Virus record (IMG/VR): IMGVR_UViG_3300033153_005324
Span: 1 to 36,237 of that record
Direction: 5' to 3' (one strand)
Source of the DNA: a virus
DNA length: 36,237 nucleotides
In this document: positions 50 through 36,123 of the stretch, piece by piece
How the letters are laid out: every line of letters begins with the position of its first letter
Position numbering within the stretch: position 1 is the first letter of the stretch
Translations under genes and position numbers: made by a program
Notes under the pieces: generated by a model
Seen by the model: the letters and a program-made list of their open reading frames with translations, nothing else
Databases searched by the model: none
Told to the model about the DNA's origin: nothing

Positions 50-58
50 TGCTATACT
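50..58 (+). promoter_or_regulatory. rightward extended -10 promoter
   Basis: TGCTATACT matches the extended sigma-70 -10 element TGnTATAAT with one change. Four leftward promoters in this genome share TGCTATAAT, which strengthens the call. No good -35 is visible; the upstream DNA is AT-rich. Transcription would start near base 65 and run through the folded region to the 35-codon gene at 551. Confidence 0.5.
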
Positions 59-115
59 GCTCTTAGAGTTAAGTTTGACTCTGTGATTTTTAACTTATCG
101 GAATGAGCTTTTTAT

Positions 116-214
116 TTAGGGGCTAGGTCGCTATGGAGGCGTTGCCAAATCGTTGGTGCTAAGGAATATACGCGGGAATACTTAGAATGTGGTTCAATCC
201 CACACCCCTAACCA
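116..214 (+). ncRNA. tRNA-like structured RNA
   Basis: A perfect 7-bp acceptor-like stem pairs TTAGGGG (116-122) with CCCCTAA (205-211), followed directly by CCA (212-214). A textbook T arm lies at 188-204: stem TGTGG/CCACA around the loop TTCAATC. Between them a 5-bp arm CTAAG (159-163)/CTTAG (181-185) and a CCAA/TTGG hairpin (145-156) can form. There is no clear D arm or standard 5-bp anticodon arm with a 7-base loop, and no separate discriminator base before CCA. It is therefore better called tRNA-like than a working tRNA. It may be a degenerate or intron-bearing tRNA, or a mimic recognised by CCA enzymes or RNase P. Confidence 0.45.
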
Positions 215-216
215 AA

Positions 217-308
217 GAGCTTTTATAGGTGTAGTAGTAGCGATTAATAGTCGCTTTGACGGTATGGAGTTCTACCTAAACTCTACTCTACACCACCTAT
301 AAGAGCTT
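217..308 (+). ncRNA. long-stem structured RNA with two 5-bp arms
   Basis: A long outer stem pairs 217-231 with 294-308 (AGCTTTTATAGGTG against CACCTATAAGAGCT, one wobble). It can continue as GTGTAG/CTACAC (229-234 with 288-293) by a small shift. Inside are two hairpins, each with a 5-bp stem and 7-base loop: AGCGA/TCGCT (239-255) and GAGTT/AACTC (267-283). There is no reading frame. The cloverleaf-like layout beside a tRNA-like element suggests a second tRNA-like or regulatory RNA. No known family was recognised. Confidence 0.5.
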
Positions 309-358
309 CATGTATCAATAGGTTTTTCATCATTCCTTCTCCGATACATGGACTCTTA
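300..358 (+). ncRNA. hairpin competing with the upstream stem
   Basis: CATGTATC (309-316) pairs perfectly with GATACATG (343-350). The stem extends outward by TAAGAG (300-305) with CTCTTA (353-358). Bases 300-305 are also the 3' side of the preceding structure's outer stem, so the two folds exclude each other, as in a switch or attenuator. The 26-base loop is pyrimidine-rich. Immediately downstream, CTAAG (361-365) can pair with CTTAG (394-398). Confidence 0.45.
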
Positions 359-411
359 GGCTAAGGATTGATATGACGCTGAAAGGTGCAGTTCTTAGTT
401 ATTAAATATTG

Positions 412-474
412 ACACGGGATAATCAAGGTTTCCTCCTTGTTCAGCTACCCTTGAACGCCTTGGTTGTCCTGTGT
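412..474 (+). ncRNA. 17-bp hairpin RNA
   Basis: Bases 412-428 pair with 458-474 over 17 positions with only G-U wobbles (ACACGGGATAATCAAGG against CCTTGGTTGTCCTGTGT). Inside is a second hairpin GTTCA/TGAAC (439-443 with 452-456). There is no U-run after the stem, so it is not an intrinsic terminator. The wobble pairs fit selection on RNA rather than on DNA. Bases 475-550 hold nothing recognisable before the ribosome site of the next gene. Confidence 0.5.
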
Positions 475-550: not shown

Positions 551-658
551 ATGAAAAAAGGTTTATTTAAAAGAGAAGTACCCTGTAAAAACTGTGGTTG
601 CTATATATTTTACAGAGCTTTCGGAGGGTTTTGTAGTAAATGTATGACTTTCATATAA
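551..658 (+). CDS. 35-residue zinc-ribbon-like peptide
   Basis: This short rightward gene has a clear ribosome site, AGGAAG, 6-7 bases before its ATG. The 35-residue product has cysteines at 12, 15, 17, 28 and 31 in a CxxC...CxxC arrangement, as in one-knuckle zinc ribbons. Small phage zinc fingers of this kind often bind RNA, DNA or a host regulator, but no specific family can be named. It is the only protein gene downstream of the folded junction region and of the rightward promoter at 50-58. It converges with the endolysin gene 11 bases away. The folded region could be its leader, controlling its translation. Confidence 0.6.
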   Translation: MKKGLFKREVPCKNCGCYIFYRAFGGFCSKCMTFI

Positions 659-7700: not shown

Positions 7701-10700
7701 TCTAGCCCATCTCCTTTATAATATCCACCATTATCTTTGATGATTTTCTGAGCCATTTCTTTTCCGATATTGTCTGCCAACTGTTCATCTGTTAGGTCAT
7801 AAATATCTTTCTCGCCTTGTTTTTTTGTATCAACAAGTATGTTCCATTTGTCACTCTTGTTCTTATATGCTTCCACACTATTTACTTGGTCTGATAATGA
7901 ATATCTCTGTGCCTGCTCTTTCCCCGCTACCCATGCAACACGGTCATAGTCTTTTTCTACTGCTTCGGCTATAATGTCTTTCATGGCTTTTTCTTGCCAT
8001 GTTTTTGAGTATGGTGCTTGGGGAACGCCTTTTACTCCACCAAGCTCATTAAGTTCTCTTATGTTTTTAGAAATATCTTGCATTTCTACATATAAAGAGT
8101 CCTCTTTTTTCAATAAGTTCTTATATGTAGCTTCTGTATCTATAGCATTGTCAATATCATTTATATGTTCTGTAAAAACAATCGTTCCGTCTTTTGCTTG
8201 TCTTGATTTTTGGATTTTATTTAAAGTGTCTCTGTCTAATGGTTGAGTAACAACATCTTTATACATTCTTACTTCTCTAAGTTCATTAATGTTGTCCGAC
8301 TCTTGTTTGCCCAACACTTCCATTTTCTGTGAATTTTCAAGGTTTTTATACCCACTCTTCCTACCTGCTTGATGCCAATCACTCTGTATCTCTTCCACTA
8401 GCAAAGTGTTTTTGCCGTCTATTTTGGTGTCTTGTTTTCTTGTGTGGTAGAGTACGTTTGGTTCGTCCCAATGGGCGGAGCGGTATGATAAGCCATCTTC
8501 TCCATTATTGATAGTGTTACGCTCTTTTTCTAGCCGACTGATTGTTTCTGAAAGTTCAACTGCTTTGTTGTTCTCTTTGGTTTGCCCTCGTCCTTCCATG
8601 TCGTCAAGCCAATTATATTCCGACTTAGGATTTTCTTTTAATTTCTTTAATTCACTTTTGAGAGATATTAACTCCTCTCCAATATCTTCTATTCTTTGTT
8701 TTTGTTTGTCTGCTAATGTCACCAACTCTTCACGGTAGTTTGTGCCTATGTCTTTGGTGGTGTAGTCTTTGAATTTTAATTTACTATCATAATAATCATA
8801 TCCATATAACTCATCTCCTATATGTAAAGCCCACTCTTCATCTTCTACAGTATTTTTACCATAAGCTTTTTTGATTGAGTTAAAGGCTTCATAATCATTT
8901 TCTAAAATAGTTACAAAATCATCTTTGCTATTTGCTTTATCGGCTATCTTTTTAACTTCTGGAATTTGATACGAAACCGCTTCTTTATTAAGAGGTAACG
9001 CTTCGTGTGTAACCCTTTCAAGTTTCGGTTGGCTGATCGCTTCAAGCAACTCATCTTTAGTGACAACATCTTTGCCCTCTAAAAACTCATCTACACCTGA
9101 CCACTTCATCTCATCGGCTTTAACATTTTTGAGTATGCCTTTGATTTGTTTTACAGAGGCACGTCTTGGCATTTTCTCAACTATAGTATCTTCTAGGACT
9201 GAGTAGAATGGTTTTGGAGGAGTTCCCCCACCTGCCGCTTTCATGGCTGCCTCTTCTATGTCGTCCATATATTTTATGACTATCTTTTTAACTTGATTTG
9301 ACGTGAGTGTTTTGTGTGCTAACTTTGCGCCAACTGCTCCGAGTAAGCCCTTCTCGATATTATATGTATATGTGCCGTCCTCGTTCTGCTCAAAGCCTGC
9401 TGTAGCTCCTAGTGTTTCGGGTCTAAGAAATATTCTATTAGCTTCTTTAATGTCCTCTTTTGAAACAGGAGGTGAAGTTTCCAAAGGTGTACTGTCGTCA
9501 ATACGCTTTAAATCATCTTCGCTTATACCTTTATATGCCTGTTCAACCGTTGGTGCTGTGTGTTTCTTCCCCAGCACTCTCATGCCTGCATTGATAGCGT
9601 CCTCGTCTGCTCCAAACTCTTTTTCGAGTTGCATTCGTTTTGCTTCTGCTCGTTGGAGTCCTGCTTCTCGTTGTGGGCTTCTTGTAATAACCTCATCTCT
9701 AGGCTTTACTACATCTGTATCGATCATGCCCGAAAGTTCATCCTCAAACTTCACAAGGTCTGTCTCTTTCATTCCGTTATCTACTGCCGACTTGACTACT
9801 TTTTCTTTGACTACTGCTTGGAACTCATCCATTTTTGCTGTTTCTTGTGGATTGAGTTGATCTGCATTTTTACCGAAGTAGCTTTGTGCTGCTCCATCTA
9901 CATCGCCTTTTGAAAGTTTGTTCCCAATTAGCTTTCTAACCACTCCGAATGTCGCCAGGTTCACACCAGTATCTATTGCAATATCTCTTAAAACATTATC
10001 CTGCCAGTCTGATTTTCCGCCGTGTTCAAGAAATGAAAGTGAAGCTTGCATAGCTGAGTCTGTTAAGAGTGCCGGGGTTAGTGACCTGATTGTACCTGCT
10101 GCGATACCACCTGCCATATAAGGTGCTACTGAACCACCTAACCATGCGCCTTGACCTGCCAAAGTTTCATCTTGTGACTGTTGAAACTCTCTAGCCATTG
10201 ATAAGTCTTGATGTTTGCTGTCGTCTGTTACTGTATGTAACACTTTATCTGCAAAGTTCCATAGTGCGTTGGTGAAGTTGTGCTGTTGGTCGCCCTCTTC
10301 TTTTTTAGGCTTAACTACGTTGCTATAGAAGTTTTCCATCACCATCATTTTCTGTTCATCGGCTAAAAGGTCAAACTCTTCATTTTTTACATTCTTTTGA
10401 AAGTAATCCAATGCACCGACTATTCTATTTTCAAGGTTCTGTGTTTTATAATGCTCTAAGTCTGTATTGAGTGCTTTGTCTGCATCTGTTATCTGTTTAG
10501 AGTAGAAGTCAAATACACCTTGATCTAGTGCTTGTTTATCTTCTGTTACCTGTATATTATGTTGAAGTTCTAGTGTTGAGCCCTCTTGTGCATCTGGGAA
10601 CAGGGTTGTGACTTCTCTTGCTTGTGTGTCTGCAAAAGTGGTTTGACTGCCTTCGCCAAACATATCTGTTACGGGTTTGCCTTGTGGCTGATACATTATC

Positions 10701-13316: not shown

Positions 13317-13379
13317 CTTCATTCCTTTAGGTTGATGTGAAGCAGTGAGTCCCGAAAGGTTATTCTAGCTATTTTAAGT

Positions 13380-13388
13380 ATTATAGCA
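13380..13388 (-). promoter_or_regulatory. leftward TGCTATAAT promoter at the origin region
   Basis: Read leftwards the sequence is TATGCTATAATAC, with the extended -10 TGCTATAAT; an ACTTGT 17 bases upstream is a weak -35. The first DnaA-like box begins 28 bases beyond it, so DnaA binding could influence this promoter. It would drive the ejection-protein genes leftwards. Confidence 0.65.
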
Positions 13389-13415
13389 TATTTATTAAGT
13401 GAACAAGTAAATTCT

Positions 13416-13554
13416 TTATTCACTTATTCACATAGTTATTCACATCAAATTGAGTTATTCACATAGTATAGAGTAGTTTTGGTGGATTTTACACAAGTTA
13501 TTCACACATAAGCAAGTTACTCACATCTTATTCACATAATAAAAGTTATTCACG
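13416..13554 (+). other. DnaA-box cluster, putative replication origin
   Basis: Eight 9-base boxes lie in one direction: TTATTCACT at 13416; TTATTCACA at 13424, 13436, 13455, 13498 and 13528; TTACTCACA at 13517; TTATTCACG at 13546. TTATTCACA fits the bacterial DnaA-box consensus TTATnCACA. An AT-rich stretch (about 13366-13415) adjoins the array and could be the unwinding region. The region (13317-13644) holds no gene apart from flanking promoters and separates leftward from rightward genes. A plasmid-style iteron array bound by a phage initiator is the alternative reading. Confidence 0.7.
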
Positions 13555-17441: not shown

Positions 17442-17996
17442 TTATATGTAGAAATCGTTTTTAGCAAAGTCGTTCTGTATCTTTCCATGCCATCTTGACA
17501 TATCCTGGTTGAGGCTGTCAAGATAGTGTTGATAGAAATACTGTGCTTTGTTTAGGCTTTCCGTTGAGTCCTCTTTTTCGTAGGCTTTAAAAAGAACATA
17601 ATTTTTAATAGCTCCACAAATATCGTCCTCGATGGTTATCTCTAAATCTTCCGAGTAAGCAATCCTAGCTGGATAGGCGTAGTATTCAACTGTGACTTCT
17701 TCCTCTTTCATGTTGGGGAATTTAATAGCCTGATCGTTTAACACCTCATACTCTTGTGTAGTGTCAACCTTAAAGAGCTCAATTACCTCAAAATTAAGGT
17801 CGTAGGTTTCGGATGCGTCTGTTACGTCAAACACATCTTTCTCGTACTTGTATTTGGTTCTCACGGCAATATCACGAATACCCTGGTTTAAGTATCTAAA
17901 CAGTTCTTCGTTAGTCCACCTGTTCTCTTGTGTGTCTTGTAGGGTATCTCTTACGGCTTCAAATATGTCTGAAACTTTTGTTGCGATCAATGCCAT
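17442..17996 (-). CDS. head-tail adaptor protein
   Basis: This 184-residue protein resembles phage adaptor/gatekeeper proteins (DUF6682-like, analogous to T7 gp11 or P22 gp4). It has an N-terminal helix pair with WTNEELFRYLNQGIRDIA, a central beta part (VFDVTDASETYDLNFEVIEL) and C-terminal helices (IKNYVLFKAYEKEDS...KAQYFYQHYL) in which residues and spacing match the family. Twelve copies would dock under the portal. Position after the capsid genes and before the nozzle agrees. Confidence 0.78.
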   Translation of the reverse strand: MALIATKVSDIFEAVRDTLQDTQENRWTNEELFRYLNQGIRDIAVRTKYKYEKDVFDVTDASETYDLNFEVIELFKVDTTQEYEVLNDQAIKFPNMKEEEVTVEYYAYPARIAYSEDLEITIEDDICGAIKNYVLFKAYEKEDSTESLNKAQYFYQHYLDSLNQDMSRWHGKIQNDFAKNDFYI

Positions 17997-29903: not shown

Positions 29904-30032
29904 TTATAATTTGCTTCCGCATTTTTTCAAAAGCATTTTAATAACCGCACTCATAGAAGCTAATTCATTTTTATCACGAATAACCTCAAGCTCTTTCTTG
30001 ACATCTTTGTCTATCTGAATATGTGTTTTCAT
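29904..30032 (-). CDS. 42-residue ribbon-helix-helix protein
   Basis: This ATG-started frame with AAAGGA 6 bases upstream encodes a minimal ribbon-helix-helix: a strand THIQIDKDV, then helix KKELEVIRDKNELAS, then SAVIKMLLKKC. Arc/CopG-type proteins dimerise and place the strand in the DNA major groove. Just upstream are two overlapping -10 boxes and a 16-bp inverted repeat (30075-30113), a natural operator, so autoregulation is likely. It lies between NinG and the conserved 174-residue gene. Confidence 0.65.
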   Translation of the reverse strand: MKTHIQIDKDVKKELEVIRDKNELASMSAVIKMLLKKCGSKL

Positions 30033-30057
30033 GTGTTCCTTTCTTTTTATGTTTCTA

Positions 30058-30072
30058 ATTATACAGATTATA
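30058..30072 (-). promoter_or_regulatory. leftward double -10 promoter
   Basis: Read leftwards, ATATAATCTGTATAAT offers two TATAAT boxes (30067-30072 and 30058-30063), the second preceded by TG. They lie between the palindrome at 30075 and the ribbon-helix-helix gene start, so the promoter is fully within reach of a bound regulator. The upstream half overlaps the palindrome, hiding any -35. Confidence 0.5.
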
Positions 30073-30074
30073 TC

Positions 30075-30113
30075 CTTAACTTTAAATTAAACTGTAATTA
30101 ATTTAAAGTTAAG
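30075..30113. repeat. 16-bp perfect inverted repeat
   Basis: CTTAACTTTAAATTAA (30075-30090) is exactly repeated in reverse complement at 30098-30113 around a 7-base spacer. It lies between the end of NinG and the promoter of the ribbon-helix-helix gene. The arms are too AT-rich for an efficient intrinsic terminator, and no U-run follows in either direction. An operator or a bidirectional RNA end is possible. Confidence 0.75.
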
Positions 30114-30128
30114 TGGTTGGGGAGTGTT

Positions 30129-34454: not shown

Positions 34455-35207
34455 TTAAAACTTCCTTGCTATATTTTTTACTTTCTTTAAAACCATATTC
34501 GGGTTATGCTCTGTGGGTTCTTCTTGTGCTTGATGAATTTTTGAAGTTTTGCCCTCTTTCATTTCGAGGGTCTTTGTGTTGATTGCTATTACCTCATCAA
34601 AGTATTTGACCTTAACCCAATCATCCCCTAGTTTTGGTTCTGGCTCTGGGGTAAATGATTTATAGGCTTTTTCTTTATCCCATGCCTTGTAGGTGAGTGC
34701 AAAGTTTTTATACTGATACCCTCCTGACTCCAAAGAGATTATAAACTCTTCATATCGTTCTATGTTGCCATCTGTTAATAAACATTGGGCTTTTAATTTT
34801 TGTTTGTATTCAGCAGATAAGTTATCGTAGCTTTGTTTTTTAGAGAGAGTGAAAGAGAATTTATTTTTACAAGTGTATTCCCCTTTCTCTTGTTCTTCCC
34901 CTTTCTCTTGTTCTTGTTCTTGTTCTTGTTCTTGCTGTGGGGGGGGTTGTGGAATTTCTGAACCCCCCTCTAGGGGTATTAGAATATCTTTCTTTGCATA
35001 CCCATAACCCTCAACACTTGCCGTTACAGCGTGCTTTATCCCAGTCCATACAAGTTGAGTCATTTTGTCTTTGAATTTTACATCATTTACATTGATCTCT
35101 AGAAACTGAACTTCACAAATAGACATAGTAATATCTGCTATTTGTGTTTTATTTAACAACTTCATTTGCTCGTAATGACTTCGATAAAAACTAAATGCTT
35201 TTCTCAT
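34455..35207 (-). CDS. DUF6291-like replication protein
   Basis: This 250-residue protein begins KAFSFYRSHYEQMKLLNKTQIADI and continues with an IC.. helix and MTQLVWTGIKHAVTASVEGYGY, as in DUF6291-type phage proteins thought to help start replication. A Pro-Gln-Glu linker (88-110) with QE repeats and a poly-C-encoded PPP run separates it from a C-terminal domain that contains YDNLSAEYKQKLKAQ and an aromatic stretch (YQYKNFALTYKAW). There is no ATPase motif. It is preceded by a structured leader RNA, suggesting tight control. Confidence 0.6.
   Translation of the reverse strand: MRKAFSFYRSHYEQMKLLNKTQIADITMSICEVQFLEINVNDVKFKDKMTQLVWTGIKHAVTASVEGYGYAKKDILIPLEGGSEIPQPPPQQEQEQEQEQEKGEEQEKGEYTCKNKFSFTLSKKQSYDNLSAEYKQKLKAQCLLTDGNIERYEEFIISLESGGYQYKNFALTYKAWDKEKAYKSFTPEPEPKLGDDWVKVKYFDEVIAINTKTLEMKEGKTSKIHQAQEEPTEHNPNMVLKKVKNIARKF
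34880..34946. repeat. hexamer, 18-bp and poly-G repeat tract
   Basis: Within the initiator-like gene, an 18-bp direct repeat (34880-34897 and 34898-34915) runs into four TTGTTC hexamers (34908-34931). These are followed by eight consecutive G on the plus strand (34939-34946; C8 in the coding strand). Hexamer and 18-bp changes keep frame; a change in the G8 length would shift it. Long poly-G tracts are known slippage sites in Campylobacterota. Confidence 0.75.
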
Positions 35208-35346
35208 GCCATCTTCCAGAACATTAAATTTAGGTTTGTGATTGAAAGTGTCCAGTTCTCTATCACTAAATTAATAACCTAAGTGAATGCCCTACCAAGA
35301 GGTAGGACTTCGAGAGCTGGACACTCACTTAGTGTATCAATTTGTA
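35208..35346 (-). ncRNA. structured leader RNA of the initiator-like gene
   Basis: Between the promoter at 35353 and the gene start at 35207, about 140 bases hold no gene but fold strongly. A 14-bp stem (35247-35260 with 35312-35325, one wobble) encloses a CCTACC/GGTAGG hairpin (35291-35306, 4-base loop). CTAAGTGA (35279-35286) inside the loop can pair with TCACTTAG (35325-35332) just outside it, a pseudoknot. CACTAA/TTAGTG (35264-35269 with 35329-35334) offers an alternative pairing. The layout suits a riboswitch-like or antisense-controlled leader, or a separate small RNA. Confidence 0.6.
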
Positions 35347-36065: not shown

Positions 36066-36089
36066 TGTAATCCTTTATATTGATAGTGT

Positions 36090-36118
36090 ATTGTATCATA
36101 GTTTGTTTTAAATGTAAA
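36090..36118 (-). promoter_or_regulatory. leftward early promoter
   Basis: The leftward sequence gives TTTACA, 17 bases, TGA-TACAAT (-10 at 36090-36095). This is the best -35/-10 pair of the genome (TTTACA is one change from TTGACA). It stands at the head of the early operon and, across the circle junction, back to back with the rightward promoter at 50-58 and the inverted repeat at 3-37. Confidence 0.75.
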
Positions 36119-36123
36119 GCATA

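Follow-up and report, generated by a model that had tools for sequence, protein, structure and literature searches.

The DNA analyzed here is a virus record of 36,237 bp, and we refer to this whole stretch as the window. It encodes a portal, a major capsid protein, a terminase, and a YqaJ/RecE-type exonuclease, and nearly all of its genes are directed leftward. A gene-free region with divergent promoters occupies positions 36066 to 36123 and 1 to 550, and within it lies a plus-strand array of predicted folds: a tRNA-like element 1 (116 to 214), element 2 (216 to 307), element 3 (302 to 357), element 4 (359 to 400), and element 5 (404 to 482). The first-pass annotation had described four folds between 116 and 474, all of which are found at those positions; element 4 was not separately listed there. 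No open reading frame (ORF) longer than 37 amino acids lies inside the array. The first ORF after it, and the only rightward one, encodes 35 amino acids (551 to 658, plus strand) and is followed by a convergent amidase gene. We note that the 35-amino-acid product carries two CxxC-type cysteine pairs (CKNCGC...CSKC) and is possibly a mini zinc ribbon.

The array region is a divergent early-promoter region. The leftward early promoter, as read from sequence, is TTTACA-17-TACAAT (36090 to 36118, minus strand). A rightward promoter had been proposed in front of the array and is plausible: although a consensus promoter scan alone did not call it, a TATACT -10 element preceded by TTTG (53 to 58, plus strand) keeps its position in a related phage, phage B, where the promoter is better (TTGACA-18-TACAAT) and stands at an equal 5-nt spacing to TAGAGTTAAG. 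Next comes a 5'-terminal hairpin (65 to 82, plus strand; AGAGT-TAAGTTTG-ACTCT) that has a pair probability of 0.87 to 0.94 and is the same in phage B at 18 of 18 letters. Divergent early promoters were also noted at 17700 to 17800 of the L148 part of phage B and at 8480 to 8600 of a second relative, L034. The latter interval holds several operator-like GTATCAT repeats, and the window has a single TGTATCATA at the leftward -10. The first 114 bp of the record recur at its end, as either an assembly overlap or a terminal repeat that ends just before element 1, and from these identical ends we take the genome to be circular, permuted, or terminally redundant. No feature found in the array region identifies it as a packaging junction.

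The host of the window phage is likely Sulfurovum-like. Compared with Sulfurovum SSBs, its single-stranded DNA-binding protein (SSB) has 78% identity along most of its length and as much as 93% along shorter stretches, which points to a campylobacterotal host. A DNA similarity search against named phages and plasmids returned chance matches only and no close relative, and IMG/VR gave two informative relatives. L034 (IMGVR_UViG_3300033153_004914) has a replication-type gene and element 5 in common with the window. Phage B (G540; IMGVR_UViG_3300033153_006183; 39,474 bp) shares a 2,025-amino-acid virion protein (74% over part), the junction, and an SSB (90% across residues 1 to 108), and relatives of the window's large terminase, portal, and capsid were not detectable in it; thus, the three genomes are mosaics. 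Three phages make up the comparison set, and a single metagenome supplied two of these; element 5 is present in all three, and elements 1 and 2 in the window and phage B.

Folding and conservation of elements 1 to 4

The array folds far better than chance, as the first-pass annotation had supposed. As plus-strand RNA, positions 100 to 490 reach -132.1 kcal/mol (z of -5.5; 0 of 100 shuffles as good), versus -95.0 kcal/mol for the minus strand (z of -1.9; 4 of 100 shuffles as good). With DNA parameters, the z score is -3.8, and the entire array of phage B folds with a z of -9.5. A genome-wide scan, in which 20 shuffles per segment make individual z values rough, placed the array and a second leader (35221 to 35340) among the strongest folds. 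The difference between strands, together with G-U pairs in the stems of elements 4 and 5, bears out the earlier suggestion that the structure is RNA. Both observations also argue against a DNA-level role for the inverted repeats, such as a replication origin, operator, packaging site, or attachment site. The long inverted repeats themselves, their position between divergent early promoters, and the stopping of the 114-bp end repeat at element 1 would suit such a role, but no integrase was recognized among the proteins tested, and an attachment site of the tRNA-gene type was rejected when the T-arm end of element 1, at up to 3 mismatches, found no copy in 175 host-family genomes. We consider a DNA-level feature highly improbable.

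Element 1 has the form that prompted its description as tRNA-like, with a perfect acceptor-type closing stem of TTAGGGG (116 to 122) and CCCCTAA (205 to 211), a T-arm of TGTGG-TTCAATC-CCACA (188 to 204), and a CCA (212 to 214). In phage B, the closing stem is GAAGTGG/CCACTTC with its 5' side in register with that of the window; all 7 pairs form in both phages, 3 of the 7 being changed on both sides. The lengths are similar (97 nt in the window versus 95 nt in phage B), and shuffles produce a 7-bp closure at rates of 1.2% and 1.9%, respectively. The interiors of the two elements cannot be aligned, yet each holds one T-arm hairpin of the form GnGG-TTCAATY-CCnC (shared GGTTCAATYCC), a motif that appeared in 0 and 1 of 20,000 shuffles. 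A T-arm with a UUCRANY loop, a feature of tRNAs, is thus found in both phages.

Nevertheless, element 1 is by its sequence not a tRNA. ARAGORN reported no tRNA in the array, and the Rfam tRNA model gave no match up to an E value of 5 in the window or 10 in phage B. A 7-bp acceptor and NCCA adjoining the T-arm are found in the window only, as phage B has CCC for CCA and carries its T-arm in the middle of the element, away from the acceptor stem. One might imagine a degenerated tRNA cluster or a tRNA mimic, a decoy for tRNA-processing enzymes, translation, or tRNA-cutting defense enzymes, and what speaks for it is that both phages have a canonical T-arm hairpin within an element of about 96 nt closed by 7 bp. 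The proposal of a mimic retains that shared hairpin and little else: tRNA and tmRNA models fail at relaxed cutoffs, neither a D-arm nor an anticodon arm is retained, and elements 2 to 5 of phage B are not tRNA-like. We regard a tRNA decoy as distinctly unlikely. A tmRNA, with a tRNA-like domain and a tag ORF, was also sought in the window by ARAGORN and Rfam, with negative results, and no Rfam family, including GOLLD and ROOL, matched the window or its relatives at the gathering threshold. The array indeed matches no known family.

Element 2 has a closing stem (216 to 234 with 288 to 307, with a 3-nt bulge) and two arms of 5 bp with 7-nt loops, AGCGA-TTAATAG-TCGCT (239 to 255) and GAGTT-CTACCTA-AACTC (267 to 283). 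The closing stem is the same in phage B (28 of 28 nt on the opening side and 21 of 21 nt on the closing side), and the conserved arms of the window and phage B read AAAGAGCTTTTATAGGTGTAGTAGTA ... CTACACCACCTATAAGAGCTT. The interior of the phage B element is unrelated in sequence to that of the window and much longer, and an exact pattern search for the interior in IMG/VR gave 0 matches. Among 399 genomes, the stem pattern gave four 3-mismatch matches versus one control match, which we treated as chance, as we did one 34-nt match within element 2 when the phage B array was compared with the 175 host-family genomes.

Element 3 is a hairpin (309 to 316 with 343 to 350) with an extension (302 to 306 with 353 to 357) and a C/U-rich loop, and it is not conserved in phage B. 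Its extension, AAGAG/CTCTT, pairs with a probability of up to 0.98 and displaces the outer part of the element 2 long stem (0.01 to 0.43). Element 3 may alternatively be extended by pairing with the 3' arm of element 2, and AAAGAGCT (214 to 221) can either extend element 1 or close element 2. The competing hairpin of the first-pass annotation is therefore real in the window and confined to it: in phage B, the stems of elements 2 and 5 pair with a probability near 1.0 and without competition, and thus the competition between elements 2 and 3 is not a conserved switch. Element 4 is a hairpin of 12 bp that include 4 G-U pairs. Phage B has neither element 3 nor element 4 as such; a single element closed by 22 bp takes their place.

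Element 5 in three phages

Element 5 consists of a core stem (412 to 428 with 458 to 474), an unpaired UUUCCUCCUU (429 to 438), and an upper stem-loop (439 to 456), and the 17 bp of its core hairpin comprise 14 Watson-Crick and 3 G-U pairs. Homologues lie on the minus strand of L034 (8450 to 8355) and of the L148 part of phage B (about 17225 to 17115). The stem letters are unrelated (ACACGGGATAATCAAGG in the window, AGGGATAAGG in L034, and AACGCTCTCATAGGGCATACAA in phage B), and each closes a stem, of 17 bp in the window, at least 10 continuous bp in L034, and 22 perfect bp in phage B. Compensatory base changes, named beforehand as a check on the structure, are found in phages B and L034. The comparison among phages shows a predicted plus-strand RNA with a structure under selection and a domain order kept in the sister phage; for elements 1 to 4, whose interiors are unalignable, the covariation evidence is that of the closing stems and the T-arm.

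What is kept in element 5 of all three phages is an unpaired UCCUCCUU together with C(U/C)ACC. On that strand, UCCUCCUU occurs once in the window, once in phage B, and twice in the L034 stretch, and it resembles the anti-Shine-Dalgarno sequence at the 3' terminus of 16S rRNA. The complementarity of the tract to the downstream Shine-Dalgarno sequences is short, at 5 to 6 bp, and its register differs among the three phages, and in phage B it sits in a hairpin loop instead of an internal loop. Element 5 is the only array element of L034, which is without elements 1 to 4. In both phage B and L034 it stands directly 5' of the first early gene, and the ORF directly behind it is homologous between the two (74%), whereas the 35-amino-acid ORF of the window is not homologous. 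The small protein downstream of element 5 in these relatives had no match in phages or genomes.

On the minus strand, the tract reads AAGGAGGA, and it could be the Shine-Dalgarno sequence of a small leftward ORF, with the plus-strand fold incidental. In the window, a 21-amino-acid ORF with a TTG start (361 to 426, minus strand) does follow AAGGAGGA. L034, however, has no start codon within 16 nt, the nearest ATG in phage B is about 19 nt away, and it is stems instead of codons that are conserved. We find a leftward ORF scarcely credible.

Further copies of element 5 were sought by pattern searches of IMG/VR, which found L034 only, besides chance matches in unrelated contigs. A covariance model, which was built on two sequences such that its negatives are weak, gave two weak matches (E values of 0.02 to 0.08) among 399 host-order genomes and, in phage B, picked up no copy within the L144 part, outside the array. 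The window array was also compared with host-family genomes, and the best matches clustered on the A-rich Shine-Dalgarno sequence and start of the small ORF. Three matches fell outside that cluster; of the two inspected, one lay in a hydrogenase-like coding region and the other had no array, and both were judged chance.

Possible roles of an early leader RNA

Of the roles first proposed for the array, a regulatory RNA or a processed RNA array fits best. Tentatively, and with confidence a little short of even, we propose a multidomain early leader RNA in which stems are cut by RNase III, element 5 sets early translation, and elements 1 to 4 act in trans. The rightward early transcript would begin with an untranslated chain of separately folded domains, elements 1 to 5, with a protective 5' hairpin standing ahead of it. 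Cleavage by host RNase III within the long stems, such as the 22-bp perfect stem of phage B, might detach element 5 from the mRNA along with the domains ahead of it. The exposed UCCUCCUU tract of element 5 could then pair with ribosome-binding sites, either that of its own downstream gene or those of others or both, and such pairing would set early translation, while elements 1 to 4 would build up as stable trans-acting RNAs. Element 5 probably serves in both RNase III-type processing and translation control, and the domains before it are likely to be set free as stable RNAs. Several points weigh against the proposal: the complementarity of the tract to downstream Shine-Dalgarno sequences is short and shifts register among the phages, the inner arrangement of element 5 differs in phage B, elements 3 and 4 lack counterparts of their own there, and the set of phages is small.

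A precedent exists in the likely host's phylum. CJnc190 of Campylobacter, which RNase III cuts from extended stem-loop precursors, base-pairs through its C/U-rich loop to a ribosome-binding site that is G-rich (PMC8687705). Element 5 resembles CJnc190 and RepG of Helicobacter in having an unpaired C/U-rich tract complementary to a Shine-Dalgarno or G-rich sequence, and in the three phages that tract is the conserved UCCUCCUU. CJnc190 and RepG are nonetheless chromosomal small RNAs that do not form an array, with no known sequence relation to the array of the window.

Alternatively, the array could be a purely cis-acting early leader, with domains that modify RNA polymerase or block early termination in the manner of put or nut sites and an element 5 that controls the first early gene. 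The location of element 5 in phage B and L034 is consistent with this reading, as is a second structured leader on the minus strand of the window (35230 to 35324), which lies 5' of a leftward replication-type gene (34455 to 35207). There, a stem spans 35248 to 35324, and the loop at 35276 to 35282 pairs with 35230 to 35236 as a pseudoknot; the z score is -5.5 in the rough 20-shuffle scan, and Rfam gave no match. Homologues lie at 9880 to 9990 of L034 and 19150 to 19300 of L148 in phage B. The sequence of the long stem differs from phage to phage, and the stem and pseudoknot covary, the pseudoknot pairings read by eye being UUAGGUU/AACCUAA in the window, UAAGGU/ACCUUA in L034, and UAAAGG/CCUUUA in phage B. 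Thus, in this phage group, the rightward and leftward early transcripts each carry a structured leader RNA. Phage HK022 likewise has one put RNA of about 70 nt per early transcript, putR lying about 270 nt from the start (PMC9378689), and the likeness extends to the lambda nut sites and N leader, with the caveat that the promoters here are read from sequence.

The put RNAs are each two stem-loops with conserved bases and are alike on both sides, whereas here there are five hypervariable domains, and the left and right leaders look unlike, with no obvious shared sequence and, by eye, no motif common to element 5 and the leftward leader. An RNA that binds polymerase should keep specific bases, and the interiors are hypervariable. 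Moreover, elements 1 to 4 are absent from L034, and in the window, the 35-amino-acid ORF leaves little to antiterminate. A put-like RNA would suppress termination in cis through the zinc-binding domain of the RNA polymerase beta' subunit. We consider a purely cis-acting leader less likely. The window keeps the array even though the downstream early operon of its relatives is absent, which favors a trans role of the released domains, if only moderately, over a purely cis leader.

A stronger version of the trans-acting proposal is that the locus chiefly produces an array of RNA domains whose closing stems are conserved and whose interiors are hypervariable and swappable, and that these domains target, in trans, either host translation or RNA-targeting defense. 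We consider the stronger version unlikely. If true, however, such domains would be a new class of RNA-made phage effectors. The pattern of stems conserved around freely exchanged interiors, with an anti-Shine-Dalgarno tract held constant in hairpins that are otherwise unrelated, points to an RNA whose target is the ribosome or some rapidly evolving factor of the host. To our knowledge, almost nothing is known of structured phage RNAs beyond well-studied hosts.

RNAC and RNAD of phage T4 fold into cloverleaf-like structures. They are small phage-encoded RNAs of unknown role (PMC3014915) and stand among real tRNA genes, whereas the array here contains no tRNA and, behind a conserved terminal hairpin, forms the start of an early transcript. 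GOLLD and ROOL are large, ornate phage and prophage RNAs, also of unknown function (PMC12286853), but they are single large folds near tRNA islands.

Finally, some structured stretches were met outside the array. When the replication-type protein was compared with the 175 host-family genomes, one gene was found in a genomic island, and it lacked a similar leader. One host-family genome has, at L123 4190 to 4350, a strongly paired stretch (AAGTCCCCCAAAATATTCC...GGATATTTGGGAGACTT) close to a replication-type gene of a genomic island. In the window, the rough 20-shuffle scan gave further low z scores, of -5.4 to -5.9, at 7981 to 8100 (plus strand), 13321 to 13440 (minus strand), and 30001 to 30120 (minus strand).
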